Shown here: in pieces, positions 7,826-24,881 of the stretch
Layout of the letters: each line of letters begins with the position of its first letter
Numbering within the stretch: the stretch's first letter is position 1
From: Haloactinopolyspora alba
GTDB lineage: Bacteria > Actinomycetota > Actinomycetes > Jiangellales > Jiangellaceae
Length of the DNA stretch: 64,000 nucleotides
Assembly (NCBI RefSeq): GCF_003014555.1
Contig: NZ_PYGE01000010.1
Coordinates: forward strand, 1 to 64,000
Direction of reading: 5' to 3'
Program-made: the position numbers and the translations under genes
Notes under the pieces: generated by a model
Seen by the model: the letters and a program-made list of their open reading frames with translations, nothing else
Databases searched by the model: none
What the model was told of the DNA's origin: nothing

Positions 7826-8060
7826 GTCCACCTCCCTGCTGGAGTGCCCGTGTGGAATGGCGACCACGTTACCTGCCCGCACCTGTGAATGCGCTGTGAA
7901 CGGTAGGGGTCCCGTTCAGGTGGAATTCATGCCGAATTCGTGGTGAATGAGCAGAAGGTAGATGTGACCCACGCCACAGAGATTCATTGCCGGTTTTCTG
8001 TACGACAGCGACGGCGACCCGGGTCTTAACGGTGTAAATCGCCTGAATCAGGTGACTAAG

Positions 8061-8079
8061 CACATCAAAGGTTGATGTG
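8061..8079. promoter_or_regulatory. Perfect palindrome upstream of the polyketide operon
   Basis: CACATCAA-AGG-TTGATGTG, two perfect 8-bp arms with a 3-bp spacer, ends 22 bp before the ACP start codon. Position and symmetry suggest an operator for a dimeric repressor; the TetR-family gene at 24231 is the only cluster-linked candidate. Coordinates may be off by one. Confidence 0.6.
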
Positions 8080-8101
8080 TCACAAGTCGGAAGGATCATT
8101 C

Positions 8102-8512
8102 ATGACTGTGGCCAAGGACCAGGTGTTCGACGCCGTCAGCTCCGCGCTCGTCGACGCGCTGGGTGTGGACGAGGACGAGGTCGTGGGTTCGGCAACCCTG
8201 CTCGGTGACCTCGAAGCCGAGTCGATCGACCTGCTCGACATCCTCTTCCGCCTCGAGCGGTCGCTGGGTGTCAAGATCGCGGCGTCCGACCTCGCGGAGC
8301 ACGTGCAGGGCGGTATCTCCGAAGAGGAATTCGGTACACCGGAGGGCGTCGTCTCCGACGTGGGCCTCGCCCAGCTGGCCCGGGTGATGCCGCAGATCGA
8401 CGTCGAGAAGCTGCGCGGGTCGCTGCCCGCCGAGGACGTCATGGGCCTGTTCACCGTCGACAACCTGGTGAGCCTCGTCGAGGCGCGGGTCGGCGCCGCG
8501 GCCGCGGCCTGA
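8102..8512 (+). CDS. Acyl carrier protein, long form
   Basis: The carrier for the growing chain. The phosphopantetheine site is the Ser in GDLEAESIDLLDILFRLE, followed by the helix II/III region. At 136 residues it is well beyond the usual 75-90: about 50 extra residues (EEEFGTPEGVVSDVGLAQLA and following) sit between helix II and the C-terminal helix VDNLVSLVEARV. Start ATG 8102 has GGAAGG upstream; an in-frame TTG at 8072 is less likely because it lies in the palindrome. First gene of the sixteen-gene operon; its stop is 1 bp from the AcpS start. Confidence 0.92.
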   Translation: MTVAKDQVFDAVSSALVDALGVDEDEVVGSATLLGDLEAESIDLLDILFRLERSLGVKIAASDLAEHVQGGISEEEFGTPEGVVSDVGLAQLARVMPQIDVEKLRGSLPAEDVMGLFTVDNLVSLVEARVGAAAAA

Positions 8513-8513
8513 C

Positions 8514-8936
8514 GTGGCGATCCGCGTCGGCGTCGACGTGGTGCACATCTCGCGGATGCGCCGGCTGCTCGACCAGCAACCGGGGCTGCGGACCGAGCTG
8601 TTCACCTCCGGCGAGCGGCGAACCTGCGGCGAGCGCCGGAACGGCGTCGGACGTCTCGCCGCCCGGTTCGCGGCCAAGGAGGCGGTGCTGAAGGCCTTCG
8701 GCACCGGTATCGGCCCGCGGATGCGGTGGATCGACGTCGAGATCGTGACCGGGGCGCTGGGGCGTCCCTCCGTGCAGCTGTACGGCGAGGTGGCCGCGGT
8801 GAGCGCCCGGCGCGGCACGCAGGAGATCGACGTGTCGCTGTCGCACACCGGCGACGTCGCCGTGGCCAACGCCGTCGTCGTCACCTCGCCCCCGGACCGA
8901 CCTGGAGAGGAGGAACCGTCGTGTTGTTCCAGCTGA
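8514..8936 (+). CDS. Holo-ACP synthase (AcpS-type phosphopantetheinyl transferase)
   Basis: A 140-residue enzyme that transfers phosphopantetheine from CoA to the ACP serine. Both diagnostic motifs are present: GVDVVHISRM (metal-binding Asp) and RLAARFAAKEAVLKAFGTG (catalytic Glu/Lys). Its position directly after the ACP gene suggests it is dedicated to this pathway rather than the housekeeping AcpS. GTG 8514 start; the 3' end overlaps the next gene by 16 bases. Confidence 0.92.
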   Translation: MAIRVGVDVVHISRMRRLLDQQPGLRTELFTSGERRTCGERRNGVGRLAARFAAKEAVLKAFGTGIGPRMRWIDVEIVTGALGRPSVQLYGEVAAVSARRGTQEIDVSLSHTGDVAVANAVVVTSPPDRPGEEEPSCCSS

Positions 8937-9370
8937 CCGACCGGATCGTCGACTATCAGCCGGGGCGGTCGATCCGCGCGCGCAAGCTCACGTCCCGGGC
9001 GGAGCCGTACTGGCGCGAGAGCGCGGACGACGGGCCCGTGATGCCGCCGCCGCTGGTCCTGGAGACGCTGTGCCAGGCCGGCGCCTGGCTGGTGATGCTC
9101 GACACCGACGTCGCCCGCCGGGCGGCACTGTTGTCGGTGTCGGACACGCGGTTCAGTGGGCCGGTGCGCCCCGGGGACGTGCTCACCGTGGACGCCACCG
9201 TCGAGTCCAGCTCCGCGGAGCGAGCCGTGATGTCCGGCGTGGTCCGGGTGGACGAGCGGACGGTGCTCGAGGCCAGCGACGTGATGTGCGCCCTGGTGGA
9301 CACCGCCGACCTGGACGATCCGGCCGTCACCCGGCGCCAGCTCGAGGCGCTGTCGGGAGACCTGCCATGA
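8921..9370 (+). CDS. Hot-dog-fold dehydratase (FabZ-like) lacking the catalytic His
   Basis: A 149-residue single hot-dog protein. The segment DDGPVMPPPLVLETLCQAGA aligns with the FabZ active-site strand and helix: the catalytic Glu is kept (LETLCQ), but the His of 'HFPG' is Ser/Ala-Asp-Asp here. Strand RFSGPVRPGDVLTVDATVES supports the fold. GGAGAGGAGG precedes GTG 8921. Alone it should be a poor dehydratase; the second hot-dog protein (10656) keeps the His and has changed the Glu, so a heterodimer that dehydrates beta-hydroxyacyl-ACP is the likely working form. Confidence 0.8.
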   Translation: MLFQLTDRIVDYQPGRSIRARKLTSRAEPYWRESADDGPVMPPPLVLETLCQAGAWLVMLDTDVARRAALLSVSDTRFSGPVRPGDVLTVDATVESSSAERAVMSGVVRVDERTVLEASDVMCALVDTADLDDPAVTRRQLEALSGDLP

Positions 9371-10659
9371 GCGGCGACCGCAGGCGCGTCGTCGTCACCG
9401 GCATCGGGGCCGTGACACCGCTCGGCAACGACGCCGCCGCCACGTGGAAGTCGCTCGCGGCCGGGCGCAGCGGCGTGCGCGCGATCACCACGTTCGACGC
9501 GTCGACGTTCCCGGTCCGGATCGCCGGGCAGGTCACCGACTTCGACGTGACCGCCGCGGTGCCGGACCGCCGGCACCGCCGGTACCTGTCCCGTGGCGCC
9601 GGGTACGGCGTCGGTGCGGCGGTGGAGGCGCTCGCGCAGGCCGGTCCGATGGACGGCACCGACCCGTACCGGCGGGGTGTGTCGGTCGGCGGCACGGTCG
9701 GCCGGGTGGGCCTCCAGCAGCTCGCCGACATGTCCTGGCTGCTCGAGTCGACGAACCACAGCCGGATCTACCGCCAGTCGCCGGCGGAGGTGCTGGAGCG
9801 TGACCAGAACGTCGCCCCCGCGGTGATGGCCGAGATCGGCGAGTGCCGCGGCCCGTTCGTGTCGGTGAGCACGGCCTGCGCCGGCGCGGCGCACGCGCTG
9901 GGCGAGGCGTACCTGCGGATCCAGGACGGCGACGCCGACGTCATGCTCGCCGGCGGCTATGACGCGTTGACGACCTGGATGGACGTGTTGGGATTCGCGC
10001 TGCTCGGCGCGCTCACCGAGGACGCACCCGACCAGCCGGAACGCGCCTGCAAGCCGTTCGACGCGCGTCGCGACGGTTTCGTGCTCGGCGAGGGCGCGGT
10101 GATGGCCGTGCTGGAGGAGCGTGAGCACGCGCTGGCCCGCGGCGCGACCGTGCTCGGCGAGATCGCGGGATACGCGTCCAGCATGAACGCCTACCGGATC
10201 ACCGACTCGCCGCCGGACGGTGGCGGGGCGATCAACGCGATGCGCGACGCGCTCGGCGACGCCGCGATGGCACCGGAGCAGATCGACTACGTCGCCGCGC
10301 ACGGCACCGGAACCCCTGGCAACGACGCCAGCGAGACGGTCGCCATCGAGAGCGTCTTCGGCCCCTGGGCCGAGCGGCTGTCGGTCAGCTCGCCCAAGTC
10401 GATGGCCGGGCACCTCACGTCGGCGGCGGCCGGGCTCAACCTGGTGGCGGCGCTGGGGGCGCTCGACGAGCAGCTCGTCCCGCCGACCGTCAACCTCGAC
10501 CATCCCGACCCTGCGTTGCGGCTGGACTACGTGCCGGGCGAGGCACGCAGCCGGCCGGTCCGCGCGGCGCTCGTCAACGCGTTCGCGTTCGGCGGCACGA
10601 ACGCGAGCTTCGTCGTCACCGGACCCGGGGACCGACCGTCGGCGGAGGTGCCGCGATGA
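9367..10659 (+). CDS. Beta-ketoacyl-ACP synthase (KAS II/FabF-like), active-type
   Basis: A 430-residue condensing enzyme. The complete triad is visible: Cys in SVSTACAGAAHALG, His in AAHGTGTPGND and His in KSMAGHLTSAAAG; the C-terminus has AFAFGGTNASFVV. It performs decarboxylative condensation of malonyl-ACP with the acyl chain. Start ATG 9367 overlaps the preceding stop. It is one of four ketosynthase units in the operon and may pair with the Cys-less ketosynthase at 11045. Confidence 0.93.
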   Translation: MSGDRRRVVVTGIGAVTPLGNDAAATWKSLAAGRSGVRAITTFDASTFPVRIAGQVTDFDVTAAVPDRRHRRYLSRGAGYGVGAAVEALAQAGPMDGTDPYRRGVSVGGTVGRVGLQQLADMSWLLESTNHSRIYRQSPAEVLERDQNVAPAVMAEIGECRGPFVSVSTACAGAAHALGEAYLRIQDGDADVMLAGGYDALTTWMDVLGFALLGALTEDAPDQPERACKPFDARRDGFVLGEGAVMAVLEEREHALARGATVLGEIAGYASSMNAYRITDSPPDGGGAINAMRDALGDAAMAPEQIDYVAAHGTGTPGNDASETVAIESVFGPWAERLSVSSPKSMAGHLTSAAAGLNLVAALGALDEQLVPPTVNLDHPDPALRLDYVPGEARSRPVRAALVNAFAFGGTNASFVVTGPGDRPSAEVPR

Positions 10660-11048
10660 TCGGACAGCTGGACGCGGTGCGGTCGCTGACCCCGGGCGTC
10701 GGCGGAACGGCGGTACGCAACGTCACCTCGACGGCGGCGATCTTCGCCACCCACTTCCCGCGGTTCCCGGTGCTGCCGGGCGTGCTCGTCATCGACGACC
10801 TGACCCGGCTGGCCGCACTGGTGCTCGCCGGCGACGGGCCTGCCGAGCGGTGGGTCCCGGCGGCGGTCGCCCGGGTCCGTTTCCGCCACTACGTGCGACC
10901 CGGCGACGTCGTCGAACTGACGGTGCAGGCACGGAACGACGACCCGTCCCGGTTCCAGGGCTCGGCCGTCGTCGACGGCACCACCGTCACCACGGTCGGT
11001 GACCTGACCATGACCCGAACGACGGCGCCACCGGGAGGACAGGGATGA
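10656..11048 (+). CDS. Hot-dog-fold dehydratase (FabZ-like) with His but Asp for Glu
   Basis: A 130-residue FabZ-like protein. ATHFPRFPVLPGVLVIDDLT retains the catalytic His and the surrounding 'HFP-x-x-PVLPGVL', while the catalytic Glu position is Asp (VID). RVRFRHYVRPGDVVELTVQA is the later hot-dog strand. It is complementary to the His-less protein at 8921. Dehydration of beta-hydroxyacyl-ACP to trans-enoyl-ACP is the expected job. ATGA overlaps at both ends show tight translational coupling. Confidence 0.85.
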   Translation: MIGQLDAVRSLTPGVGGTAVRNVTSTAAIFATHFPRFPVLPGVLVIDDLTRLAALVLAGDGPAERWVPAAVARVRFRHYVRPGDVVELTVQARNDDPSRFQGSAVVDGTTVTTVGDLTMTRTTAPPGGQG

Positions 11049-12328
11049 GCGACGAGCGGCGTGTGGCGGTGACCGGCATCGGCCTGCTCACCGCGCTGGG
11101 CACCGGCCACGAGGCGACATGGAACGGGCTGGTCGCCGGTCGCACCGCGGTCGGCGGGCTGCGCAACTTCGACGCCGGCTCGTTGCGGACCAGGATCGGC
11201 GCCGAGCTGACCGAGTTCGACGCGTCGGCGTTCGCGACCCGGCGCATGCTGCGCAGCGCCACGCGTGAGGACGAGCTGGCGCTGGCGGGCCTCAAGCTGG
11301 CGGTCGACGACAGCGGCGCCGAGCTCGACCGGCTCGACCCGGAGCGGCTGGCGGTCTTCCTCGGCGGCAACAAGGAGATCTCGCGGCCACAGCATCTGAT
11401 CGACGGGGCGATGTCGGTGCGGGACGAGGACGGGTCGGCGCACGAACGCGTGCTCGGCGAGCGGATGGGCTCGAGCTTCTACCCGCTGTTCTACGTCGAG
11501 GGGCTGCAGGCGGCGGCGTTGTTCTACGCGTCGCAGCGGTACCAGGCCAAGGGCGCCAACGCCTACTTCCACGGCACCGCCGACGCCGGCGCGACCGCGA
11601 TCGGCCGGGCGTACCGGTCGGTGCGGCGCGGCGAGGCGGACCTCGCGCTGGCAGGCGGGTTCGACACCGGCGTGTCGTTCTGGGCGATGTCGAAGATGGA
11701 CGGGCTCGGCGTGCTGACCGACCGCAACGAGCTCGGTACCGGGGCGTTCCGCCCGTACGACCGCGAGCGCAGCGGCTCGGTCCTGGGTGAGGGCGCCGTC
11801 GTGCTGGTGCTCGAGGAACGCGCGGCGGCAGCGGCCCGCGGCGCGGTGATCTACGCCGAGATCGACGGGTTCGGGTCGGCGTTCGACGCGGGCGGGCTGG
11901 TCACGCCGGAACGTGACGGCGCGGCACTCACCGGCGCGGTGCTGGGCGCCGGGCGCGAGGCCGGCTGGACGGCCGACGGGCCCGACTACGTGGCCACGCA
12001 CGGGTGCGCCACGCCGCTCGGTGACGCCAGCGAGGCCGCCGGGCTGCGGGCGGCGTTCGGCGCGGCGGCCGACCGGGTGGTGGCCAGCAGCGTCAAGCCG
12101 GCGGTAGGGCACCTGGTCGCCGCCGCCGGCGCCATGAACGTGGCGACCGCCGCGCTGGCGCTGCACCACGGCAGCGTGCCGCCAACGCTCAACCTCGACG
12201 ATCCGGACCCGGACTGCGCCATGGACTGGGTGCCGAACGAGTCGCGCGCCCTGCCGGCGCGCTCCGCCGTGGCGCTCGCCCGCGGCCTGGAAGGACAGAA
12301 CGTCGCTGTCGCGCTCGGCGCGGCATGA
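11045..12328 (+). CDS. Ketosynthase homologue without active-site Cys (CLF-like)
   Basis: A 427-residue FabF-fold protein. The nucleophile region reads [16 protein letters not shown], so the Cys position is Ala, whereas the two His motifs remain (YVATHGCATPLGDAS and KPAVGHLVAAAG). Loss of only the Cys is typical of chain-length-factor or decarboxylating partners of a type II KS. The separate active KS at 9367 is the obvious partner. Its C-terminal signature is also changed (ARGLEGQNVAVALG instead of the usual FGGTNA). Confidence 0.85.
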   Translation: MSDERRVAVTGIGLLTALGTGHEATWNGLVAGRTAVGGLRNFDAGSLRTRIGAELTEFDASAFATRRMLRSATREDELALAGLKLAVDDSGAELDRLDPERLAVFLGGNKEISRPQHLIDGAMSVRDEDGSAHERVLGERMGSSFYPLFYVEGLQAAALFYASQRYQAKGANAYFHGTADAGATAIGRAYRSVRRGEADLALAGGFDTGVSFWAMSKMDGLGVLTDRNELGTGAFRPYDRERSGSVLGEGAVVLVLEERAAAAARGAVIYAEIDGFGSAFDAGGLVTPERDGAALTGAVLGAGREAGWTADGPDYVATHGCATPLGDASEAAGLRAAFGAAADRVVASSVKPAVGHLVAAAGAMNVATAALALHHGSVPPTLNLDDPDPDCAMDWVPNESRALPARSAVALARGLEGQNVAVALGAA

Positions 12329-12363
12329 CCGCCCGAGCGCGTCGCGAGGAACAGGAGCCGACC

Positions 12364-14697
12364 ATGCCAATCGAGACCAGCGAAGTGCCACGCGTCGCCG
12401 TGCGCAGCGTCGGCGCGGTGACCGCGCTCGGCGGGGACGCCGCGGCGTTGTGGGCCGGTGCCCGGGACGGCCGGGTGGGTATCCGGCCGGTGCAGCGACT
12501 CGACCTGACCGGGGTGCGGACCAAGGTCGGCGGCGAGGTCGACATGTCACCGGAGAGCGCGCACCCGTATCCGCGGCCGGGCGGCTTCCGCGACCGGATG
12601 GTCGAGCTCGCGTTGCGGGCGACGGACGAGGCGATGGCCGGCGCCGGGGACCTGCCCGGCCGGGCCGGTGCCGAGCGGTGCGGTGTCGTGTTCGGCACCT
12701 GCAACGCCGGCCTGCTGTCCGGCCGGGAGTGGCTGGCCGCCGTCGACCGCGGCGAGCATCCGCCCGCGGGACTGGCGCCGATGTCGACACCTCAGGCCAC
12801 CGGCGAGGCGCTGGCCGGCGCGTACGACTTCCGCGGTCCGGTGTTCGCGGTGAACACCGCCTGCGCGTCCGGCGCCAACGCCGTGGGGTGGGCGGCGGAC
12901 CTGATCAGGTCCGGGCAGGCCGACGTGGTGCTGACCGGCGGCTCGGACGCCTTCTCCGACGTGCTGTTCGGCGGGTTCCACGCCCTGGAGGCGCTGTCGC
13001 CCGAGCCGGCCCGGCCGTACTCGCGCGAGCGGCAGGGCCTCTCGCTGGGTGAGGGTGCCGCGTTCCTGGTCCTGGCGCGTGAAGACCTGATCGCCGCGGA
13101 CGACGTGCTGGGCTGGGTCGGCGGGTACGGGCTGTCCGCGGACGGATACCACCCGACGGCGCCGCGACCCGACGGCTCCGGAGCGTCCCGGGCGATCACG
13201 CAGGCGCTGCGCTCCGCGGGCGCCCGGCCGGACGAGGTCGGCTACGTCAACGGTCACGGCACCGGGACGGACAAGAACGATCCGGCGGAGACGCAGGCCA
13301 TCCGTACCGCTCTCGGGGACGCGGCCGACACGGTGCCGGTCAGCAGCACCAAGTCGGTCATCGGCCACCTGCTGGGCGCGGCCGGCGCGGCCGAGGCGGT
13401 CGTCACCGTGCACGCGCTCGAGCAGCGCACCGCGCCGCCCACCGCGTCGTACGCGGGCCCGGACCCGGCCTGCGACCTGGACTACGTGCCGCTGGACGCG
13501 CGTGCGCTCGACAGCACGGTCGCGGTGTCGAACAACTTCGCCTTCGGCGGCTCGAACGCGAGCCTCGCGCTGCTGCGGGCCGACGACCGCCGCCGGCCAC
13601 CCGCCGCGGACCTGGACGACGTCGTCGTCACCGGGCTCGCGGCGCTGGGACCGTTCGGCGACGGCGTCGCCGCGGCCCGGGAAGCGGCGCACAGCGCGGG
13701 GGTCCCGGCCGATCCCCGGGGTCGCGTGGGCACCATGACGGTGGACCCGGAGCCGCATCTCAGCCGCAAGCAGCGCCGCCGGATGGACCGGATGACCGTG
13801 GCCGCCGTGGTCGCCGCGGACAAGGCGCTCGCCGACGCGGAACTGGCCGACGGCGACCGCGCCGGTACCGGCGTGCTGGTCGGCACGTCCGCGGGCCCGG
13901 TGGAGTCGATGGCCGCGTTCACCCGCGGCGTGCTCGCCGACGGCCCGTCCGGCGCCGACCCCGCGCTGTTCCCGAACACGGTCTACAACCAGCCCGCCGG
14001 GCAGGTGGCGCAGCATCTGGGCCTGCACGGACCGACGTCGACGGTGTCGGCCGGGCACGCCTCGGGTGCGACGGCGCTGGCGTACGCGTGCCAGCTACTG
14101 CGCACCGGGCATGCCGACGCCGTGGTGTGCCTGGCCGTCGACCTGGTCGACGAGCTGGTCGTCCGGGCGTACCGCGACCTGGGCGTGCTGTCGACCACGC
14201 CGGGTGACCGCCGGTTCGCCGTCACCGACGCCGCCGTCGCCGTGGTTCTGGAGCGGCGCGGGGGCGCCGAGCGGCGCGGCGCTCGGTCCCGCGCCCTGCT
14301 CGCCGGGTACGGCAGTGCCAGTCACGTCCGTCCCGGCGGCGTCTCGTGGGACCTCGGCGGAGACGCGACGGCACGCGCCGGCGCGCACGCGCTGCACGAC
14401 GCCGGCATCGCCGCGGGTGAGGTCGCGGGCGTGTGGACGGCGGCCGCCGGCCTGGCGCCGGCCGACCGAGGCGAGCGCGCCGGGCTGCGCCGGATCTTCG
14501 GTGACCGGCTGCCGCCGTTGCACGAACCCAAGAAGGCACTGGGCGAGCCGGTGGGGCCGGGCGGCGCCCTGACGACCGCGCTCGCGGTGGATGCCCTGGA
14601 CGGCGGGGGCCACGCGGGCCCCGCACTGGTCAACGCGACGTCGCTGGGCGGGACGGCCGTCTCGCTCGTCGTGAGTCCCGCAGCCGACGACAAGTGA
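12364..14697 (+). CDS. Fused ketosynthase plus chain-length-factor protein (KS-CLF)
   Basis: One 777-residue ORF holds two FabF-like units. Unit 1 (about 8-415) is complete: Cys in AVNTACASGANAVG, His in GYVNGHGTGTDKND, His in KSVIGHLLGAAGAAE, and NNFAFGGSNASLALL. Unit 2 (about 425-777) is degenerate: the Cys site reads TVSAGHASGATALAYA with His for Cys, and the two His motifs are gone (VWTAAAGLAPADRG; ALGEPVGPGGAL). This is a KS and a CLF in one chain. ATG 12364 has AGGAG upstream; an ATGA start at 12325 would add 13 residues. Confidence 0.88.
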   Translation: MPIETSEVPRVAVRSVGAVTALGGDAAALWAGARDGRVGIRPVQRLDLTGVRTKVGGEVDMSPESAHPYPRPGGFRDRMVELALRATDEAMAGAGDLPGRAGAERCGVVFGTCNAGLLSGREWLAAVDRGEHPPAGLAPMSTPQATGEALAGAYDFRGPVFAVNTACASGANAVGWAADLIRSGQADVVLTGGSDAFSDVLFGGFHALEALSPEPARPYSRERQGLSLGEGAAFLVLAREDLIAADDVLGWVGGYGLSADGYHPTAPRPDGSGASRAITQALRSAGARPDEVGYVNGHGTGTDKNDPAETQAIRTALGDAADTVPVSSTKSVIGHLLGAAGAAEAVVTVHALEQRTAPPTASYAGPDPACDLDYVPLDARALDSTVAVSNNFAFGGSNASLALLRADDRRRPPAADLDDVVVTGLAALGPFGDGVAAAREAAHSAGVPADPRGRVGTMTVDPEPHLSRKQRRRMDRMTVAAVVAADKALADAELADGDRAGTGVLVGTSAGPVESMAAFTRGVLADGPSGADPALFPNTVYNQPAGQVAQHLGLHGPTSTVSAGHASGATALAYACQLLRTGHADAVVCLAVDLVDELVVRAYRDLGVLSTTPGDRRFAVTDAAVAVVLERRGGAERRGARSRALLAGYGSASHVRPGGVSWDLGGDATARAGAHALHDAGIAAGEVAGVWTAAAGLAPADRGERAGLRRIFGDRLPPLHEPKKALGEPVGPGGALTTALAVDALDGGGHAGPALVNATSLGGTAVSLVVSPAADDK

Positions 14698-14707
14698 GGT
14701 CAGCACG

Positions 14708-15481
14708 ATGAATCTGGACGACAGGGTGGCGGTGGTCACCGGCGGCTCGCGCGGCATCGGCCGTGCGACGGCGCTGGCCCTCGCCGCCGACGGCGCACGG
14801 GTCGCCGTCAACTACCGATCCGGCAAGGACGAGGCGCACGACGTCGTGGCCGAGATCGAGGCCGCCGGCGGGCGCGCGGCGGCCTTCGCCGCGGACGTCT
14901 CCGACTACGAGCAGGCACGGGCGCTGATGGCCGAGGTGCTGGACACCTTCGGTGACCTGCACATCCTGGTCAACAACGCCGGGGTGTCGAAGGACAACCT
15001 GATCTATCACATGGATCCGCAGGACTGGATGGACGTCATGCGGGTCAACTTCGGCGGCGTGTTCAACTGCACCAAAGCCGCCCTCGACCACTTCATGGTC
15101 ACCCGCGACGCGGCCATCGTGAACGTGTCGTCGGTCATGGGCGAGCGCGGCTGGACCGGCGAGTCGAACTACGCCGCGTCCAAGGGCGCCGTCGACGCCT
15201 TCACCCGCAGCGCCGCCGTCGAGCTGGCCCGTTTCCGCGTGCGCGTCAACGCGGTGCTGCCAGGATTCGCCCCCACCGACCTGGTCGCCGACCTCTCCGA
15301 AGGGGACGTGGCCAAGCATCTCAAGCGGCAGATCCCGATGCGTGACTTCGCCACCGTCGAGCAGGTCGCCTCCGGGATCCGGTTCCTGGCCGGGCCGGAG
15401 TCCGAATACATGACCGGTGTGCTGCTGAACGTCGACGGCGGCGGCATGGCCGGGCTCGGGCTGGGACGGCTGAAATGGTGA
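14708..15481 (+). CDS. 3-oxoacyl-ACP reductase (FabG-like SDR)
   Basis: A 257-residue short-chain dehydrogenase with TGGSRGIG (NADPH loop), ILVNNAGVSKDN, the catalytic Ser in NVSSVMGERG and NYAASKGAVDAF (YxxxK). It should reduce the beta-ketoacyl-ACP after each condensation. It is the only ketoreductase in the operon. With two dehydratases and no enoyl reductase, this predicts alternating double bonds. The next gene starts in its last codons. Confidence 0.93.
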   Translation: MNLDDRVAVVTGGSRGIGRATALALAADGARVAVNYRSGKDEAHDVVAEIEAAGGRAAAFAADVSDYEQARALMAEVLDTFGDLHILVNNAGVSKDNLIYHMDPQDWMDVMRVNFGGVFNCTKAALDHFMVTRDAAIVNVSSVMGERGWTGESNYAASKGAVDAFTRSAAVELARFRVRVNAVLPGFAPTDLVADLSEGDVAKHLKRQIPMRDFATVEQVASGIRFLAGPESEYMTGVLLNVDGGGMAGLGLGRLKW

Positions 15482-16593: not shown

Positions 16594-18167
16594 GCGAGCG
16601 AGATGACTACGACGTCATCGTGGTCGGCAGCGGCCTGGGCGGACTGTCGGCGGCGGCGCTGCTGGCGCACAGCGGCGAGCGCGTCCTGGTGTGCGAGCAG
16701 GGCGCGGGTATCGGCGGCGTCGCGCACGCGTTCGTCCGCGGCGACTACACGTTCGATCCGGCGATCCACGGCACCGGCGGCGGCCCCATCGTGGGCAACT
16801 TCCTCGAGTACCTGGGTGTGGAGGACGAGTGCCGGCTGGTGGTGGCGCCGCACGTGTACGGCGCGGCGTTCCCGGACGGTCTCGACGTCGTCGTGCCGAA
16901 CGGCTGGGACCAGTTCACCGAGGCCAACGCCGCCGCCCTCGACGACGCCGAGGCCGCCGAGTTCCGCGAGTTCGTGCGGGTGTGCCGCGCCGTCGTCGAC
17001 GAGATGTCCTGGCTGCCCAACCGGATCGACCCGCGCGAACTGGACGAGGTCATGGCGGCGCGGCCGTACTTCTCCCGCTACCGGATGGCGACGGTGAAGG
17101 ACGTCCTCGACGACTACGTCTCCGGGCAGCGTGCGCGTGCGCTCGCCGGAGCGGTCTGGCCCTTCATCGGTTCCCCGCCGTCGCGGCTGGCGTTCTCGAC
17201 GTACGTCAAGGCACTCGACTCCCACCTGGAGGGACCGCGGTACCCGCTTGGCTCCTACCAGCGCATGGCCGACGCGTTCGCGAACGTGGTGCGCTCGTGC
17301 GGCGGCGCCGTGCTGGCCGAGACCCCGGTGGCGCGGATCGTCGTGCAGGACGGCCGCGCGACGGGCGTGCGCACCGAGGACGGCACCCAGTTCAGCGCAC
17401 GTGTGGTGATCTCGAACGCGGACGCCCGGCACACGATGCACGATCTGGTCGGCGACGACCAGCTGCCGGCCGCCTTCGTCAAGCGGCTGAACCGGATGAC
17501 GCCCACCCTGTCGGCGGTCAGCGTGTTCGCCGCGACCGACATCGACCTGAACGAGCTGGACATCGCCCACGAGACGTTCGTCCATCCGCATCTCGATCAC
17601 GAGGACAACTGGCGTGAGGTGCTGGCCGGGCGTCCGGCGTCGGCCTGGATGTCGAACACCACGATGATCGACCCCAGCCTGGCTCCTGCGGGCGAGCACC
17701 TGGCCATTCTCAACGTGATGGCGCCGTGGCGGCTGGACCGGCCCTGGCGTGAGCTCAAGGAGACGGCCGGCGACGCCCTGGTGCGGCTCTTCGAGCGGGT
17801 CGTGCCGGAACTCTCCAGCCGGCTGACCTACCGCGAGGTGGGCACGCCCGAGACCCTGCACCGGTTCACCCGAAGCGACCAGGGCGCGGTGTACGGCTGG
17901 GAGAACACGCCCAACCAGGTGGCGAGCAAGCGGCTGGCCCACCGCAGCCCGGTCGAGGGCCTGCTCCTGTCGGGGCACTGGACCGAGGCGAACTGCTCGT
18001 CGTTCCGCGCGGTGTCGTCCGGTGTGATCGTCGCCAAGCTCGCCCTCGAGGACCTCGGGAACGAGGTTCTGGCCACCCTGCCGCGCTCGTTCGTCGAACG
18101 CACCGGACGGGTGCGGCCCTACCCCCGCGCCGCCACGGCGCCGGACGTCGAAGGAGTGACCCTGTGA
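16590..18167 (+). CDS. FAD-dependent CrtI/retinol-saturase-like oxidoreductase
   Basis: A 525-residue flavoprotein. The N-terminal Rossmann motif is DVIVVGSGLGGLSAAALLA, followed by GIGGVAHAF; the C-terminal FAD motif is LLLSGHWTEANCSSFRAVSS. The family includes phytoene desaturases and retinol saturases, which act on conjugated polyenes. In this operon it could dehydrogenate, isomerise or aromatise the polyene product; CrtI-like enzymes also occur in cinnamoyl-forming and ladderane-type clusters. GGAGG at 16578-16582 supports ATG 16590. Confidence 0.85.
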   Translation: MSERDDYDVIVVGSGLGGLSAAALLAHSGERVLVCEQGAGIGGVAHAFVRGDYTFDPAIHGTGGGPIVGNFLEYLGVEDECRLVVAPHVYGAAFPDGLDVVVPNGWDQFTEANAAALDDAEAAEFREFVRVCRAVVDEMSWLPNRIDPRELDEVMAARPYFSRYRMATVKDVLDDYVSGQRARALAGAVWPFIGSPPSRLAFSTYVKALDSHLEGPRYPLGSYQRMADAFANVVRSCGGAVLAETPVARIVVQDGRATGVRTEDGTQFSARVVISNADARHTMHDLVGDDQLPAAFVKRLNRMTPTLSAVSVFAATDIDLNELDIAHETFVHPHLDHEDNWREVLAGRPASAWMSNTTMIDPSLAPAGEHLAILNVMAPWRLDRPWRELKETAGDALVRLFERVVPELSSRLTYREVGTPETLHRFTRSDQGAVYGWENTPNQVASKRLAHRSPVEGLLLSGHWTEANCSSFRAVSSGVIVAKLALEDLGNEVLATLPRSFVERTGRVRPYPRAATAPDVEGVTL

Positions 18168-19867
18168 CCCGGACGAACACCGTTCGAGCGGGCGACACCG
18201 CCTGGACCAGGTGTCCGCACTGCTCGTCGTACCTCTACGTGAAGCGGCTGAACCGCAACGACAAGGTCTGCCCGGACTGCCGGCACCACCTGCGGATGCC
18301 GCTGGACGAACGCCTCGAGCTGCTGCTCGACGGTGGTTCGCTGCGGATGCTGGACGAGGTGCCGGCCTCGGCCGACCCGCTCGGGTTCGTCGACTCGAAG
18401 CCGTACCGGCAACGGCTGGCCGAGGCGCGGGAGCGCACCGGCCGTGCCGACGCCGCCGTCGCCGGAACCGCCACGGTCGGCGGCAGTCCGGTGGTCGTGG
18501 CGGCGCTGGATTTCGCCTTCATGGGCGGCAGCGTCGGCACGGTGGTGGGCGACATCCTGGTCCGGGCGGCACAGCTGGCCGGCGAGACGCGGACGCCGCT
18601 GCTGCTCGTCTCCGCGTCCGGCGGCGCCCGCATGCAGGAGGGCTGCCTGTCGCTGATGCAGCTGGCCCGCACCTCGCAGGAGATCGCGCGGTTGCGCGAG
18701 TCCGGGGTGCTGGTTGTCAACGTGAACACGAACCCGACGTTCGGCGGCGCCACCGCGTCGTTCTCGTCGCTGGGCGACGTGATCGTCGCCGAACCCGGCA
18801 GTCTGATCGGCTTCGCCGGCCCGCAGGTGATCCGGCAGACCGTCCGTGAGGAGCTGCCGGCGGGGTTCCAGACCGCCGAGTTCCTGCACGAGCACGGCCT
18901 GGCGGACCTGGTCGTGCCGCGCGAGAGCCTGCACGAGACGCTGGCCGGGCTGTTCCGGCTGCACCGCGCCGACACGGCCGACGGTGCGGCCGGGCATGGC
19001 CGGGGTGAGCCGCGCCGCCTGTCGACCCGGGCGCCCGCGCCGGCACGGGCGTGGGACGTGGTGACGCGCGCCCGGAACGTGGGCCGGCCCACCACGCTCG
19101 ACTATCTGCACCAGCTCGCCGACGAGTTCGTCGAGCTGCACGGCGACCGGGTGCACGGCGACGACCCCGCCGTCGTCGGCGGCATCGCCCGGCTGGCCGG
19201 GCGCAGCGTCGTCGTCATCGGGCACCAGAAGGGCCACGACACCGCCGAGATGGTGCACCGGAACTTCGGGATGCCGCACCCCGAGGGCTACCGCAAGGCG
19301 ATGCGGCTGATGCACCACGCCGAACGGTTCGGGCTGCCGGTGGTGACGTTCGTGGACACCGCCGGTGCCTATCCGGGCCTCGAGGCGGAGGAACGCGGAC
19401 AGGGCGCTGTCATCGCCGAGTGCATCGCCACGATGGCGCGGCTGAGCGTGCCCGTGGTGAGCGTGATCACCGGCGAGGGCGGCAGCGGCGGCGCTTTGGC
19501 GCTGGCGGTCGCCAACCGGGTGGTCATGCTGCAGAACGGCTACTACTCGGTGATCTCGCCGGAGGGCTGCTCGACGATCCTCTGGGGCAGCGCCACCCGG
19601 GCGCCGGACGCCGCGGCGCAGTTGCGGCTGACCGCGGCGGACCTGCAGGAGTTCGGCGTGGTCGACGAGGTCGTGCTCGAGCCGGACGGCGGTGCGCACG
19701 AGGACCCGGCCGGCACCGTCGACCGGGTCGGCGAGACCGTCGCCGCCGTCCTCGCCGAGCTCGGCACGATGTCCGGCGACGAGCTCGTCGCGCACCGGCA
19801 CGCGCGGTTCGACGCGTTCGGCCGGCTCGGCGCGGACGCTGAGACGGTCCGGGCGGGGGCGGCATGA
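18164..19867 (+). CDS. Acetyl-CoA carboxylase carboxyltransferase, fused AccD-AccA
   Basis: One 567-residue chain joins both carboxyltransferase subunits. The beta part (about 1-270) has the zinc finger [20 protein letters not shown] and [14 protein letters not shown] plus [19 protein letters not shown]. The alpha part (about 290-560) has [36 protein letters not shown] and [15 protein letters not shown]. It transfers CO2 from carboxybiotin to acetyl-CoA. Together with the next two genes it supplies malonyl-CoA to the pathway. Actinomycetes usually use AccA-B-E type complexes, so this split-type enzyme is probably pathway-specific. GTG 18164 overlaps the preceding stop. Confidence 0.92.
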
Positions 19868-20430
19868 GCGGCGGCGAGGAAACGGCCGTGGACGTGCCCG
19901 CCGAGGCGCCGGCCGCGGAGGCTGTCAGCGGGCCGGAGCGGCAGCGGCTGATCAGTCACCTGCGGTCGGAGGCGTCGGCGCTGCTGACCCAAAGCGGCGA
20001 GCCGGTGCAGGTGGTCGAGCTGACCGCCGGCGACTGCTCGGTGCGGCTGGAGCGCCCGGCGCCGGTGAGCGCGCCCGTCGCACCGGGCAACGTGCCGGTC
20101 GCGGCGCCTGAAGCGAACGGGCAGGTGCCCGGGGCATCCGCCGACGGGCTCGGCGGACCGGCCGGCGAGGACGACGGCACACCGGTGCACCCGGTCCGCG
20201 CGCCGCTGGTGGGCACCTTCTACCGGCGTCCCGGGCCGGACGCGAAACCGTTCGTCGAGGTCGACGACCAGGTCGAGGCCGGCCAGACGCTGGCGATCGT
20301 CGAGGCGATGAAGCTGATGAACGAGATCCGCAGTGACCGGGCCGGCCGCGTCGTGGCCGTCCGTCCCGCAGACGGCCAGATGGTCGAGTTCGACGAGGTG
20401 CTCGTCGAACTGGCCGTCGCGGACGCCTGA
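19864..20430 (+). CDS. accB: Biotin carboxyl carrier protein of acetyl-CoA carboxylase
   Basis: A 188-residue AccB. The C-terminal biotinyl domain has the biotinylation motif [10 protein letters not shown] and the thumb-region signature [18 protein letters not shown]; a Pro/Ala/Gly-rich linker (about residues 65-110) precedes it. It carries CO2 between the biotin carboxylase and the fused carboxyltransferase. ATGA overlap with accDA upstream; a 28-bp gap leads to accC. Confidence 0.93.
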
Positions 20431-20458
20431 CCTCGACCGCCGCGCTGAGGAGACTCGC

Positions 20459-21817
20459 GTGTTCGACAAAGTACTCATCGCCAACCGCGGCGAGATCGCC
20501 GTCCGGATCGTCCGGGCCTGTCGTGAGCTCGGCATCGCCACGGTGGCGGTCTACTCCGACGCGGACGAGGACAGCCTGGCGGTCTCGCTCGCGGACGAGG
20601 CCGTGCGCATCGGCCCCGCGCCGGCGACGGCCAGCTACCTGAACATCCCCAACGTGATCGGCGCGGCGCTGAAGACCGGCGCCGACGCGGTGCACCCCGG
20701 CTACGGCCTGCTGTCCGAGGACCCGTACTTCGCCGAGATCTGCGCCGACCACGACCTCACCTTCATCGGCCCGTCGCCGTCGGTCATGGAGGCCGTAGGC
20801 GACAAGGCCGTCGCCCGGCAGGCGATGACCACCGCGGGGCTGTCGCTGCTGCCCGGGACCGTCGACCCGGTGCACACCTTCGACGAGGCGAACGACGTCG
20901 CCGAGGAGATCGGCTACCCGGTGGTCATCAAGGCCTCGGCCGGCGGGGGCGGGCGCGGCATCACCGTGGTGCGCCGGCCCGACGATCTGCGCGAGGCGTA
21001 CCGGCGGACCCGGGCGACGGCGCAGGCGGTCTTCCGCAACCGTGACGTCTACCTGGAGCGCTACCTCGACCGCGCCCGGCACGTCGAGGTCCAGGTGCTC
21101 GCCGACGCACACGGCGACGCCGTGCACCTGGGCGAGCGGGACTGCTCGGTGCAACGGCGGCACCAGAAGCTGGTCGAGGAGGCGCCGTCGCCGGGCGTCT
21201 CGCCGCAGCTGCGCGACGAGCTGGGCAAGGCCGCGCTGACCGGCGCCACCGGTGTCGGCTACCGCGGCGCGGGCACCATGGAGTTCCTGCTCGACGACGA
21301 CGGCCACTTCTGGTTCATGGAGATGAACGCCCGGGTCCAGGTCGAGCACCCGGTCACCGAGATGGTCACCGGGGTCGACATCATCGCCGAGCAGATCCGG
21401 GTCGCCGCCGGGCAGCCGCTGTCGTTCACCCAGGACGACGTCGCCCTGGACGGGCACGCCGTCGAGTTCCGGATCAACGCCGAGGACCCGGCCCGTGACT
21501 TCGCGCCCACGCCCGGGCGGCTGGACGTCTTCCATCCGCCGGGTGGCCCGTGGACCCGGGTCGACACCGCCTGCCGTCAGGGCGACCGCATCCCGCCGCA
21601 CTACGACTCGATGATCGCGAAGCTCGTGGTCTGGGGGCCGGACCGGGCGGCGGCACTGGACCGGGCCGGCCGCGCCCTGGACGAGTTCGTGATCGCCGGC
21701 GGCGGTGTCCACACCACCACCGGCTTCCACCGCGCCGTCGTCGACCACCCGGAGTTCCGATCCGGCGACGTGCGCACGGACTTCCTGACCCGCCACCCAC
21801 CGGAGGAGCTGACATGA
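20459..21817 (+). CDS. accC: Biotin carboxylase subunit of acetyl-CoA carboxylase
   Basis: A 452-residue ATP-grasp enzyme: KVLIANRGEIAVRIVRACRE, the glycine-rich loop KASAGGGGRGI, RHVEVQVLADAHG and EMNARVQVEHPVTEMVTG. It carboxylates biotin on AccB using bicarbonate and ATP. GTG 20459 (product MFDKVLIA) is preceded by GAGGAGA; an upstream in-frame extension to 20333 has no ribosome site. The stop overlaps the fabD-like start. Confidence 0.95.
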   Translation: MFDKVLIANRGEIAVRIVRACRELGIATVAVYSDADEDSLAVSLADEAVRIGPAPATASYLNIPNVIGAALKTGADAVHPGYGLLSEDPYFAEICADHDLTFIGPSPSVMEAVGDKAVARQAMTTAGLSLLPGTVDPVHTFDEANDVAEEIGYPVVIKASAGGGGRGITVVRRPDDLREAYRRTRATAQAVFRNRDVYLERYLDRARHVEVQVLADAHGDAVHLGERDCSVQRRHQKLVEEAPSPGVSPQLRDELGKAALTGATGVGYRGAGTMEFLLDDDGHFWFMEMNARVQVEHPVTEMVTGVDIIAEQIRVAAGQPLSFTQDDVALDGHAVEFRINAEDPARDFAPTPGRLDVFHPPGGPWTRVDTACRQGDRIPPHYDSMIAKLVVWGPDRAAALDRAGRALDEFVIAGGGVHTTTGFHRAVVDHPEFRSGDVRTDFLTRHPPEELT

Positions 21818-22773
21818 CCCGGACCGCCCACATCTTCCCGGGACAGGGGTCGCAACGCGTCGGCATGGGCCGCGACCTGGCCGACCAACACCCGCGAGCG
21901 GCCGAGCTGTTCGCCGCCGCCGACGAGGTACTCGGCTTCGAGCTGAGCCGGCTGTGCTGGGAGGGCCCGGAGGAGGAGCTGCGCCGGACCGAGATCACTC
22001 AGCCGGCCCTGTTCGTCGCCTCGCTGGCCATGCACCGGGTCCTCGACGAGTACCTGCCGCCACCGGTCGTCGTTGCCGGTCACAGCCTGGGCGAGTACAC
22101 CGCCCTGGTCGCCGCCGGCGTGCTGGACTGGACGTCCGCGCTGCGGCTGGTGCGCCGGCGCGGCGAGCTCATGGCAGCGGTCAACGAGAGCACCCCGGGC
22201 GCGATGGCCGCGGTGATCGGGCCGGCGGCCGCTCAGGTCGAACGGTGGTGCGCCGCGGCCGGCGACGGCCACGACCGCCTGGTCGAGATCGCCAACCACA
22301 ACGACGACACGCAGACCGTCGTCTCCGGAACGGTCGCCGGCGTCGCCGCGCTCACCGAGCACGCCCGTACGCACGGCCCGGCCGACACCCGCGTGACGAA
22401 GCTCGGCGTCGGCGCGCCGTTCCACTGCTCGCTGATGCGGCCCGTAGAGGCGGAGTTCGCGCGGGAGCTGGACGCCGTCGAGTTCGCCACGCCGCGCATC
22501 CCGGTCGTGTCGAACGTCGACGCGAGCACCGTCACCACCGGGCGGCAGGCGCGTTCGGCGCTGCGGGCGCAGCTGGCCGGTGCGGTGCGCTGGCGCGAGA
22601 GCATGGACACGATCGCCGGGCACGGCGTGGACGCGTTCGTGGAGGCCGGTCCGGGGCGGGTTCTCACCGGGCTGTGCCGGCGCAGCCGCCCGGACATCAC
22701 CTGCCACTCGGCCTCGGACGCGCGTCGCGTCGACAGGCTGGTCGCCGAGCTCGCCGTGGCCCAGCCGGCATGA
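21814..22773 (+). CDS. Malonyl-CoA:ACP transacylase (FabD-like)
   Basis: A 319-residue acyltransferase that loads malonyl onto the ACP. The catalytic Ser lies in VVAGHSLGEYTALVAAG, with GQGSQRVGMG at the N-terminus, QPALFVASLAM and the late His in GAPFHCSLMRPVE. In-cluster presence removes dependence on the housekeeping FabD. Both ends overlap their neighbours by four bases. Confidence 0.94.
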   Translation: MTRTAHIFPGQGSQRVGMGRDLADQHPRAAELFAAADEVLGFELSRLCWEGPEEELRRTEITQPALFVASLAMHRVLDEYLPPPVVVAGHSLGEYTALVAAGVLDWTSALRLVRRRGELMAAVNESTPGAMAAVIGPAAAQVERWCAAAGDGHDRLVEIANHNDDTQTVVSGTVAGVAALTEHARTHGPADTRVTKLGVGAPFHCSLMRPVEAEFARELDAVEFATPRIPVVSNVDASTVTTGRQARSALRAQLAGAVRWRESMDTIAGHGVDAFVEAGPGRVLTGLCRRSRPDITCHSASDARRVDRLVAELAVAQPA

Positions 22774-24209
22774 CCGGCGACCGGTCGGGCGCCCGCCCCG
22801 TCACCACCGTCTTCCTGGCCTGTTCGATGCCGACGTTCATGGCCGGCCTGGACAACCTGGTGGCGGTGACGTCGCTGAACGTGATCCGGCTCGACCTCGG
22901 TGCCGACGCGGCTCACCTGCAGTGGATCTCCACCGCCTACATGGTCGCCTTCGCCGGGCTGTTGCTGGTGGCGGCCGGCCTCGGCGACCGGTGGGGCCGG
23001 CGCCGGGTGTTCGTCACCGGCATCGTGGTGTTCACCGCCGCGTCGCTGGCGTGCGGGCTCGCCGAGACGACGACCCAGCTCATCGCCGCCCGCGCCGTGC
23101 AGGGCGTGGGCGCGGCCACGCTCACGCCGTTGTCGTTGACCATCCTCGCCGGAGCCGTCCCCGAACGCCGGCGCGGACTCGCCGTCGGGCTGTGGAGCGC
23201 CGCCAACGGCGCGGCCATCTCGCTCGGCCCGCTCGCCGGTGGCGCCATCGCGGAGGGTCTGGACTGGCGATGGGTGTTCTGGATCAACGTGCCCATCGGC
23301 GTGGCGGCCGTCGTGCTGGCACGAAGCCGGCTGCCCGAGAGCCGCGGTGCGGCGAGCCGGATCGACGCCGTCGGCATGGCCGCGGCGTGCGCGGCGATCG
23401 TGGCGGCGATCTGGGCCGTCGTGAACGCGCCGGAGCGGGGCTGGACGTCGGGTCCGGTACTGGTGGCCGCCGTCGTCGCGCTGCTGGCGGCCGTGTTCTT
23501 CACCCGGTGGGAGCGGCGGACGGAGGCCCCGTTGCTTCCGCCGCGGCTGTACCGGATCCGCAGCTTCACGCTGACCAACCTGGTGACGCTGTGCATGCAC
23601 GTGGGCGTGTTCGGCTCGATCTTCCTGCTGGCTCAGTTGTTGCAGGTGGCGCACGGGTACGGGCCGTTCGACGCCGGGCTGCGCACCATGGCCTGGACGG
23701 TCATGCCGATGCTGGTGGCTCCGGTCGCGGGAGTGCTGACGCAGCGCATCGGCGGCGGCCCGCTGATGGCGGGCGGCCTCGCGCTGCAGGCGGCCGGGCT
23801 GGCGTGGATCGCGTCGACGGCGGCGCCCGGGCAGCCGTTCACCGAGATCGTCGGGCCGATGGTGGTGGCCGGAACCGGCATGGGGCTGGTGTTCGCCCCG
23901 ACGGCCGCGGTGGTGCTGTCGTCCGTGCGGCCGGAGGAACACGGCCTCGCCTCGGGGGCCAACACCACGGTGCGCGAGCTCGGGGGCGCCCTCGGGATCG
24001 CCGTCCTCGGCACCGTGTTCCAGGCTCGGGGCGGCTACGCAGACCCGCAGCGGTTCGTCGACGGCGTCACCGCCGCGCTGTGGGTCGCCGTGCCGGTGGT
24101 CGCCGTCGGCGCGGTGCTGGCCCTGCTGATTCCTCGTGGTTCCGGTGCGACCGGCGGTGCGACGGTGCAGGTCGACGACGTGTCGTCGGCCGGGGCGCGA
24201 TCTCGATGA
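22770..24209 (+). CDS. MFS exporter, DHA2-type (about 14 TM)
   Basis: A 479-residue major facilitator with about 14 hydrophobic segments. It shows GLGDRWGRRRVFVTGIVVFT (motif A) and ARAVQGVGAATLTPLSLTIL (motif C region), typical of the EmrB/QacA drug:H+ antiporter group. It is translationally coupled to the transacylase gene and is the last gene of the operon, so it likely exports the product or gives self-resistance. Confidence 0.9.
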   Translation: MTGDRSGARPVTTVFLACSMPTFMAGLDNLVAVTSLNVIRLDLGADAAHLQWISTAYMVAFAGLLLVAAGLGDRWGRRRVFVTGIVVFTAASLACGLAETTTQLIAARAVQGVGAATLTPLSLTILAGAVPERRRGLAVGLWSAANGAAISLGPLAGGAIAEGLDWRWVFWINVPIGVAAVVLARSRLPESRGAASRIDAVGMAAACAAIVAAIWAVVNAPERGWTSGPVLVAAVVALLAAVFFTRWERRTEAPLLPPRLYRIRSFTLTNLVTLCMHVGVFGSIFLLAQLLQVAHGYGPFDAGLRTMAWTVMPMLVAPVAGVLTQRIGGGPLMAGGLALQAAGLAWIASTAAPGQPFTEIVGPMVVAGTGMGLVFAPTAAVVLSSVRPEEHGLASGANTTVRELGGALGIAVLGTVFQARGGYADPQRFVDGVTAALWVAVPVVAVGAVLALLIPRGSGATGGATVQVDDVSSAGARSR

Positions 24210-24230: not shown

Positions 24231-24881
24231 ATGACGACCAGCCGCACGTCGCGACCCGGCGCCGAGCAGTCGTTGCTGACCAAGGCCGGCTACCACCACG
24301 GCAACCTGCGAGCGGCGCTGATCGAGGGCGCCGTGGCGCTCGTCCGCACGCGCGGCACCCGGCGGTTCACGCTGTCCGAGGCGGCCCGGGTGGCCGGCGT
24401 GACCAGTGCGGCGCCGTACCGGCACTTCGACAGCCGCGAGGCGTTGCTGGCGACGGTCGCCGAGCGGGGCTTCGAGCAGTTGCGCGCGGCCATGGGGTCG
24501 GTCGAGCCGGAGGCGTTCGACGACCCGATGGACGGGGTGATCGCGCTCGGTGTGCGCTACGTGGAGTTCGCGGAATCGGAGCCGCAGATCTTCAAGCTGA
24601 TGTTCTCGGTCGACGATCGGCTGCCGGCATCCGAAGCCGGGCTCGCGGCGCTGGAGATGCTCACCCGGACGCTCGAGTCCGCCCATCGCGCCGGGCGGCT
24701 GAACGTCGACGTCGACACCGCGACCCGAGCGGCGTGGGCGCTGGCACATGGCGTGGCCACGCTGCGCATCGACGGCATGCGCACGTTCGGGGGCGCGGAC
24801 GGCGACGACGCGTCGGCCACGCTCCGAGCGTTGCTGCGCGGCCTGGACAGCTCGCCGGCGCCGCACTCGCACGTGTCCTGA
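24231..24881 (+). CDS. TetR-family regulator with WHG-type C-terminus
   Basis: A 216-residue regulator. HTH: GTRRFTLSEAARVAGVTSAA, then PYRHFDSREALLATVAERGF. The C-terminal part (RYVEFAESEPQIFKLMFSVD) is like the WHG ligand domain. ATG 24231 is favoured; TTG 24222 is possible. It lies 21 bp after the exporter gene and may control the operon (palindrome at 8061) and/or the downstream gene, whose promoter holds TAATGGTCATTA. Confidence 0.85.
   Translation: MTTSRTSRPGAEQSLLTKAGYHHGNLRAALIEGAVALVRTRGTRRFTLSEAARVAGVTSAAPYRHFDSREALLATVAERGFEQLRAAMGSVEPEAFDDPMDGVIALGVRYVEFAESEPQIFKLMFSVDDRLPASEAGLAALEMLTRTLESAHRAGRLNVDVDTATRAAWALAHGVATLRIDGMRTFGGADGDDASATLRALLRGLDSSPAPHSHVS

Follow-up and report, generated by a model that had tools for sequence, protein, structure and literature searches.

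How does a reducing type II polyketide synthase (PKS) let go of its product when its operon encodes no recognised thioesterase, non-ribosomal peptide synthetase (NRPS) or ligase? The question is raised by an operon in a 64,000-nucleotide stretch of Haloactinopolyspora alba (NZ_PYGE01000010.1, positions 1 to 64,000; hereafter the window), which lies on contig C10 of the 5.5-Mb host genome (G000). The operon is a variant of an already known kind of reducing type II PKS, and its main new point is a protein resembling ketoacyl-acyl carrier protein (ACP) synthase III (KASIII) and related to the enzyme AbyA1. In a reading that we hold tentatively, with nearly even confidence, this protein releases a polyene built from self-supplied malonyl units, probably with ring closure, in a sigma-factor-controlled pathway that includes tailoring by a CrtI-like flavoenzyme. 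If the KASIII-like protein is the release step, the operon shows product offloading in a type II polyene synthase that has none of the usual enzymes for it.

The relationship to AbyA1 is seen in sequence, fold and phylogeny. Among solved structures, the nearest chain is AbyA1 (5by7, a ‘tetronic acid condensing enzyme’; phmmer, E 5e-30), which is also the top match by fold when a model of the KASIII-like protein is searched with Foldseek; FabH and further KASIII proteins make up the 50 hits shown below it. The mean predicted local distance difference test score of the model (pLDDT 62.8) suffices for the fold only. In a tree, 13 KASIII-like copies, 17 AbyA1-like rows and 12 FabH-type rows resolve into three clean groups, named before the tree was seen and each with support of at least 99. 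Sixteen AbyA1-like matches with loci were used out of the 20 listed, L024 was omitted because L079 is the same gene, and the motifs of L029 led to its reassignment to the AbyA1-like group. Rooted on FabH, the KASIII-like copies form one clade (100/99) that is sister to the AbyA1-like group and outside it. A C-terminal motif, [IVL]E[SAT][ST][KR][WY], links the two groups independently of rooting: all 30 of their rows have it, and the 11 FabH-type rows that can be read there lack it (the twelfth, L030, is cut off at this point).

The catalytic His of KASIII enzymes is lost in both groups. AbyA1-type proteins keep Cys and Asn; all 16 KASIII-like copies have Glu for His and Ala for Asn, and in the window the Cys is also replaced, by Gly. 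The KASIII-like protein thus resembles the tetronate enzymes AbyA1, RkD and Mad16 in having AbyA1 as its nearest solved relative by single-sequence and fold search, in the sister position, in the C-terminal motif and in the missing His, but differs in also lacking Cys and Asn, in having no glyceryl-ACP genes beside it and in being hosted by a type II system. Passages of two papers propose or assign to AbyA1-type proteins the formation of a C–C and a C–O bond with release of the chain (PMC3625739, PMC7489565). By its sequence, the window protein is not a starter-type FabH. The initial annotation had held that nothing nearby defines a starter or a release step, which is too strong a statement for a locus with a sister of tetronate chain-release enzymes that has neither the FabH nor the DpsC triad.

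The loss of the nucleophile is confined to part of the family. Cys is replaced by Gly in eight KASIII-like copies (window, L013–L016, G015, G019 and G193a) and kept in the other eight (G193b, Streptomyces eurocidicus, G687, G623, G748 and three Streptomyces plasmids). The Gly copies form one clade (95/86, in the tree holding 13 of the 16 copies), and a tree of the elongation genes of 11 operons gives the identical split with support of 100/100. The second dehydratase of the operon (DH2) has changed in step: its Glu is replaced by Asp or Gly in all seven Gly-type operons scored, and none of the six scored operons of the Cys type has lost it. Since a single branch accounts for both changes, they amount to one coincidence and are no correlation seen repeatedly. 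Purifying selection acts on the Gly form, which is not decaying, with ratios of nonsynonymous to synonymous substitution (dN/dS) of 0.23 and 0.10 in two pairs, inside the range of its neighbouring genes (0.05–0.29).

Genome G193 holds both forms. Its Cys form (G193:C35:26115-27176) lies in a separate trio of KASIII, CrtI-like and SnoaL-type genes, away from the polyketide genes, so the KASIII and the flavoenzyme may work as a pair once the chain has been built. With a natural Cys form and a natural Gly form in one genome, the question of release is directly testable. A more specific proposal, which we think unlikely, is that a KASIII-fold release enzyme lacking the Cys-His-Asn triad, and kept by selection, closes a ring on the ACP-bound polyene with no covalent intermediate. 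We know of no type II PKS that releases its product in this way.

The chain on which this protein would act can be predicted from the rest of the operon. KS1, the first ketosynthase (KS), and the N half of a fused KS and chain-length factor (KS-CLF) have Cys-His-His in all 14 full copies. At the Cys position the separate chain-length factor (CLF) has Asp in 13 of 14 copies and Glu in one (G687), and the C half of the fusion has His in 13 of 14 and Asn in G623. The ketosynthases are thus paired with Cys-less partners, as in highly reducing type II PKSs. The ketoreductase (KR) retains its catalytic Ser-Tyr-Lys by motif reading, two dehydratases (DHs) are encoded, and family searches found no enoyl reductase (ER) among the 15 operon genes; the rest of the genome was not searched for one. 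The C-terminal extension of the long ACP is conserved in all 11 aligned copies. PDB entry 9s5h, a two-chain synthase, matches KS1, the CLF and the KS-CLF. Because the KR, dehydratases and KS/CLF pairs are present and no ER is in the operon, polyene synthesis is supported, and a type II polyene or polyene-derived ring, as first suggested for this DNA, is still the best reading, with its chemistry predicted from the genes.

Close parallels exist. The highly reducing type II systems for the polyenes of ishigamide, colabomycin, simocyclinone, skyllamycin and kitacinnamycin likewise have a KS-CLF, KR, DH and discrete ACP, and passages of PMC6510318 describe clusters of this kind with more than one KS/CLF pair. 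The window differs from them in the fusion of one KS-CLF, in the lack of an NRPS, in the AbyA1-like KASIII, and in a KS and KR that, among solved structures, are nearer to FabF and FabG. For the catalytic KS, the comparison with Iga11, Sim3, Cal30 and Sky17 covered PDB chains only, among which FabF ranks above Iga11. Aryl polyene (APE) clusters share two condensing units and a dehydratase pair with the window, according to parts of PMC8358021 and PMC8041823, but combine a KS-CLF with the FabB-like ApeR where the window has two KS/CLF-like pairs; an APE-type aryl-ACP (benzoyl) starter ligase and a second ACP are absent from the 15 genes.

The dehydratases may work as one enzyme. DH1 has the catalytic Glu in all 14 copies, 12 of which have no His where FabZ has it. 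DH2 has its His in all 13 copies scored (that of L015, detected by tblastn and missed by the gene caller, was excluded from the counts), and at the acid position Glu in six, Asp in four (window, L013, L014 and L016) and Gly in three (G015, G019 and G193). Because the His and the acid come from opposite subunits in FabZ-type hotdog enzymes, DH1 and DH2 likely form a heterodimer in which the His of DH2 pairs with the Glu of DH1, and where DH2 has Gly such a heterodimer would be required. Only in those three genomes are the residues plainly complementary. A strictly split active site was rejected: the DH1 copies of L086 and L088 have His, and the window, L013, L014 and L016 keep an acid in DH2. 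Part of PMC8041823 describes the APE dehydratase as a heterodimer with a single active site.

Taken together, we propose the following route. The acetyl-CoA carboxylase (ACC) subunits AccDA, AccB and AccC and the malonyl-CoA:ACP transacylase (MAT) would supply malonyl-ACP on the dedicated long ACP, activated by AcpS. One KS/CLF pair, made up of KS1 and the Asp-type CLF, and a second, the fused KS-CLF, would elongate the chain, and the KR with DH1/DH2, probably as a heterodimer, would reduce and dehydrate in every cycle. With no enoyl reductase, the chain would remain a conjugated polyene. The KASIII-like protein would not prime; it would take the finished chain and release it without decarboxylation, probably by ring closure as AbyA1-type enzymes do and, in the clade of the window, with no Cys to serve as the nucleophile. 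Before or after release, the CrtI-like flavoenzyme would isomerise or desaturate the chain; the major facilitator superfamily (MFS) protein would export the product and an extracytoplasmic function (ECF) sigma factor would turn the operon on.

Several observations weigh against this route. The KASIII-like model is poor, and an eight-row profile search ranks the FabH of Neisseria meningitidis first and AbyA1 second, so the similarity to AbyA1 should not be over-read. Only the FabH rooting makes the two groups sisters, and the program used for the tree cautions that long branches meet in it. Passages of PMC3625739 leave the order and the roles in AbyA1 bond formation open as of 2011. Without Cys, His and Asn, any catalysis by the window protein is conjectural, and it could be a structural partner. 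A tetronate itself is unlikely because no glyceryl-ACP (FkbH) gene is annotated; family searches found none among the genes searched in 8102-27865, and a tetronate product was rejected on this ground. Among PDB chains, both KS1 and the KS half of the KS-CLF have FabF proteins of fatty acid synthesis as their nearest relatives, Iga11 of ishigamide does not come within E 1e-65 of KS1 or E 1e-60 of the KS-CLF, and the KR is closest to FabG. For the dehydratases, the two Streptomyces DH1 copies with His depart from the pattern, and the window DH2, with His and Asp, could act alone; this pair is functional in FabA.

The operon is one of a family. The order from the sigma factor to the MAT is kept in four other records (L013–L016), with the MFS gene next in three; they come from Jiangella aurantiaca, Phytoactinopolyspora endophytica, P. 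halotolerans and one genome labelled Kribbella albertanoniae. L013, L015 and L016 were taken as the same genomes as G016, G012 and G010, and each was counted once. Because of this synteny, and because dN/dS is 0.05–0.29 across the 14 gene pairs computed, the arrangement is not due to chance. The operon of L014 (NZ_SMKA01000012.1, the record labelled K. albertanoniae) is closer to that of J. aurantiaca (synonymous divergence 0.21–0.39) than the window's is, which would fit mislabelling, contamination or recent transfer.

Seven of the 22 Jiangellaceae genomes carry the KASIII-like marker. Two of them, G015 and G019, have a rearranged operon (AccDA-AccB-AccC-MAT-KASIII-like-CrtI-KR-ACP-AcpS-DH1-KS1-DH2-CLF-KS-CLF), followed by a protein that by eye resembles an alpha/beta hydrolase. 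Outside the family, the marker occurs at E ≤ 1e-80 in five further genomes among 393 drawn from the class, and in one of 66 genomes of another class of the phylum (G193). In a sample of the phylum, 12 of 396 genomes pass E 1e-40, of which, beyond the window, only G193 scores like the KASIII-like family; the remaining ten have scores of the FabH or AbyA1 kind. Neighbourhoods were read in G687, G623, G748, part of G703, G193, S. eurocidicus and three Streptomyces plasmids, with G647 (a 3.9-kb contig) left out.

An eight-gene core (ACP, KR, DH1, KS1, DH2, CLF, KS-CLF and KASIII-like) was seen in 14 genomes: the window, L013–L016, G015, G019, G193, G687, G623, G748 and three Streptomyces. The gene set, which the initial annotation did not recognise, is therefore not a one-off. 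Of the parts looked for in 40 kb of S. eurocidicus, only KS/CLF pieces, a KASIII-like gene, a SnoaL-like gene and a flavoenzyme fragment were found. The reducing type II PKS clusters described here thus form an uncharacterised family that spans two actinobacterial classes and Streptomyces linear plasmids, and has a small core movable as a single operon. No characterised member was met in the open-access literature, where the Streptomyces plasmid clusters were not searched for; none of this literature was found to link Jiangella with type II polyketides and polyenes, and the main text of a type II PKS cluster catalogue (PMC10132072, seen in part) does not name Jiangella.

The KASIII-like protein has matches in 17 plasmid records, 16 from Streptomyces, and three of the 17 were read. 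On these three linear Streptomyces plasmids (L086, NZ_CP107820.1; L087, NZ_CP106799.1; L088, NZ_CP108801.1), the genes that come after the eight-gene core encode aldo/keto reductase, FAD oxidoreductase, T_hemolysin-family, AMP-binding, TauD, MFS and SnoaL-type proteins. The earlier observation that no AMP ligase is nearby does not extend to these versions, which have an AMP-binding enzyme close by.

Tailoring genes vary more than the core. A PF01593-type flavoenzyme occurs in most versions: it is CrtI-like in the window type, G015, G019, G193, G687 and G703. L086 has a shorter, amine-oxidase type instead, and L087 and L088 have genes with the same annotation; G623 encodes a 68% homologue of this shorter type, and S. 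eurocidicus a fragment of it (117 residues, 70%). The 35 kb of G748 yielded no such flavoenzyme. Relatives also carry SnoaL-type cyclases, FAD monooxygenases and an anthrone-oxygenase-like protein, and those tested have no match in the window or in L013–L016. The dedicated malonyl-CoA supply, which had been claimed for the operon, is borne out by its distribution: of the 22 family genomes, only the seven with the operon have AccDA of the 69–78% type. Two more AccDA-like genes, less closely related, lie elsewhere in the window genome (51%, G000:C3:151792-153465; 36%, C19).

The resemblance of KS1, the KS-CLF and the KR to FabF and FabG is also what a specialised lipid pathway would predict, in which, much as in anammox bacteria or Desulfotalea, an unusual polyunsaturated acyl chain is kept in the cell, possibly with an ER acting in trans. 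The complete ACC fits such a pathway, and so do the gene types. Parts of PMC2649909 and PMC4790861 list ACP, FabF, a non-canonical FabF, FabZ, phytoene-desaturase-like proteins and AcpS in the ladderane candidate clusters, all of which have counterparts in the window, and describe two Rhodopirellula FabF paralogues with Asp or Glu in place of Cys, like the window CLF. The window differs from these clusters in its CLF fusion, its exporter and its KASIII-like release candidate, and neither the radical SAM genes that are prominent in them nor methyltransferase genes are found among the 15 genes. An MFS exporter, a KASIII that is sister to release enzymes, relatives with SnoaL, FAD monooxygenase and anthrone-oxygenase-like genes, and occurrence in only seven of 22 family genomes all speak against this pathway, and we judge the lipid reading unlikely. 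Primary fatty acid synthesis is disfavoured because the operon is patchy and lacks an ER; genes for type II fatty acid synthesis elsewhere were not sought.

A second alternative, which we rate slightly lower still, makes the KASIII-like protein a priming enzyme or a non-catalytic scaffold, with release by simple hydrolysis. KASIII genes of type II clusters often encode priming enzymes, as stated in part of PMC12664062, and a hydrolase gene is at hand at 25246-26748, kept downstream in L013–L015; in G015 and G019, the KS-CLF is followed by a protein that by eye resembles another alpha/beta hydrolase. The same source gives priming KSs of type II systems as having Cys-His-Asn or Ser-His-Asp triads. 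Because both are absent from the KASIII-like protein, a starter-unit role was rejected; the sister position to release enzymes and the separate KASIII-CrtI-SnoaL locus of G193, away from elongation genes, also argue against this alternative as a whole.

In cinnamoyl biosynthesis, the desaturation enzyme is reportedly phytoene-dehydrogenase-like; the word ‘phytoene’ is absent from the main text of the paper that gives the scheme. The proposal that the polyene is isomerised, cyclised by 6-pi electrocyclisation and aromatised by the CrtI-like enzyme draws on that enzyme's presence and on the published scheme (isomerase, electrocyclisation, then desaturation; PMC6510318, in part), but is improbable, given that no isomerase or NRPS is annotated among the 15 genes (the comparison did not include Sky27 itself) and that the CrtI form was neither found in the stretches of G623 and G748 read nor listed in the three Streptomyces plasmid versions.

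Release by the KASIII-like protein remains our preferred reading, and the layout of the operon completes the description. Gene calling by third-position GC content, with family searches, gives 15 genes in 8102-24209; the initial count of sixteen holds only if the TetR gene at 24231-24881 is included. Every function first named is present at its site, including four ketosynthase units in three genes (KS1, the CLF-like KS and the fused KS-CLF). Overlaps of 4 bases, thought to join nearly all genes, occur at nine of 14 junctions (taking the KS-CLF gene to start at 12325 and AccC at 20459), and the other five are +1, -16, +10, -7 and +28 bases.

Table. Features of the operon and its flanks in the window, with the basis of each assignment.
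Feature	Positions	Strand	Basis
ECF sigma factor, probable operon regulator	6943..7578	+	TIGR02937
Short acidic open reading frame, 44 aa, between sigma and ACP genes	7691..7825	-	gene calling
TGTG-N8-CACA palindrome, CRP-like operator candidate	7963..7978	.	alignment of 5 upstream regions
Promoter candidate GTNCGA-N16-GGTCWT	8000..8027	+	1 in window against 0.03 expected
ACP, long form (136 aa), Ser in AESIDLL	8102..8512	+	PF00550
Holo-ACP synthase (AcpS)	8514..8936	+	PF01648; NF000832 above cut-off
Dehydratase DH1, Glu kept, catalytic His absent	8921..9370	+	PF07977; residue alignment
Ketosynthase KS1, Cys-His-His	9367..10659	+	PF00109/PF02801; motifs
Dehydratase DH2, His kept, Glu to Asp	10656..11048	+	PF07977; residue alignment
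Chain-length-factor-like KS (CLF), Cys to Asp	11045..12328	+	PF00109; motifs
Fused KS-CLF; N half Cys-His-His, C half Cys to His	12325..14697	+	two KS stretches; motifs
3-oxoacyl-ACP reductase (KR), Ser-Tyr-Lys intact	14708..15481	+	TIGR01830 250 bits, under its 297.75 cut-off; motif
KASIII-like protein, triad Gly-Glu-Ala, sister of AbyA1-type release enzymes	15475..16593	+	sequence, fold, tree
CrtI-like flavoenzyme (putative desaturase or isomerase)	16590..18167	+	PF01593; TIGR02734 141.7 bits, cut-off 238.1 not reached
AccD-AccA fusion, carboxyltransferase	18164..19867	+	TIGR00515, TIGR00513 above cut-off; PF03255
AccB, biotin carboxyl carrier protein	19864..20430	+	TIGR00531 109.7 bits, slightly under 115.2 cut-off
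AccC, biotin carboxylase	20459..21817	+	TIGR00514 above cut-off
Malonyl-CoA:ACP transacylase (MAT)	21814..22773	+	TIGR00128 above cut-off
DHA2-family MFS exporter	22770..24209	+	TIGR00711 above cut-off; matched in L013, L015, L016, not L014
TetR regulator, likely linked	24231..24881	+	PF00440, PF13305; 54-68% at equivalent site in L013-L015

The unit appears from sequence to reach upstream of the ACP gene, and the ECF sigma gene and the promoter candidate belong with the window-type version. Homologues of the sigma factor (56–63%) adjoin the operon in all four other family genomes with a window-type operon (G016, G013, G010 and G012); in the rest of the 22 family genomes no match is better than 43%. 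The promoter candidate also precedes the ACP gene in five other window-type loci (L013–L016 and L082 of G013), and across 85 loci it has a single unrelated match, in L061. The palindrome is weak by itself, with one seen in the window against 0.54 expected. The short acidic open reading frame is possibly a small partner of the sigma factor, being present in three of five loci: by eye, similar minus-strand acidic frames lie at the equivalent site in L013 (2077-2214) and L016 (1722-1895), none was called in L014, and L015 has an unrelated one only.

Downstream, the alpha/beta hydrolase has a C-terminal hydrophobic region and could be either a candidate thioesterase or an unrelated neighbour. The small membrane protein after it (26777-27187) has a 65% identical counterpart near the rearranged operon of G015 (L021, about 11111-11605).

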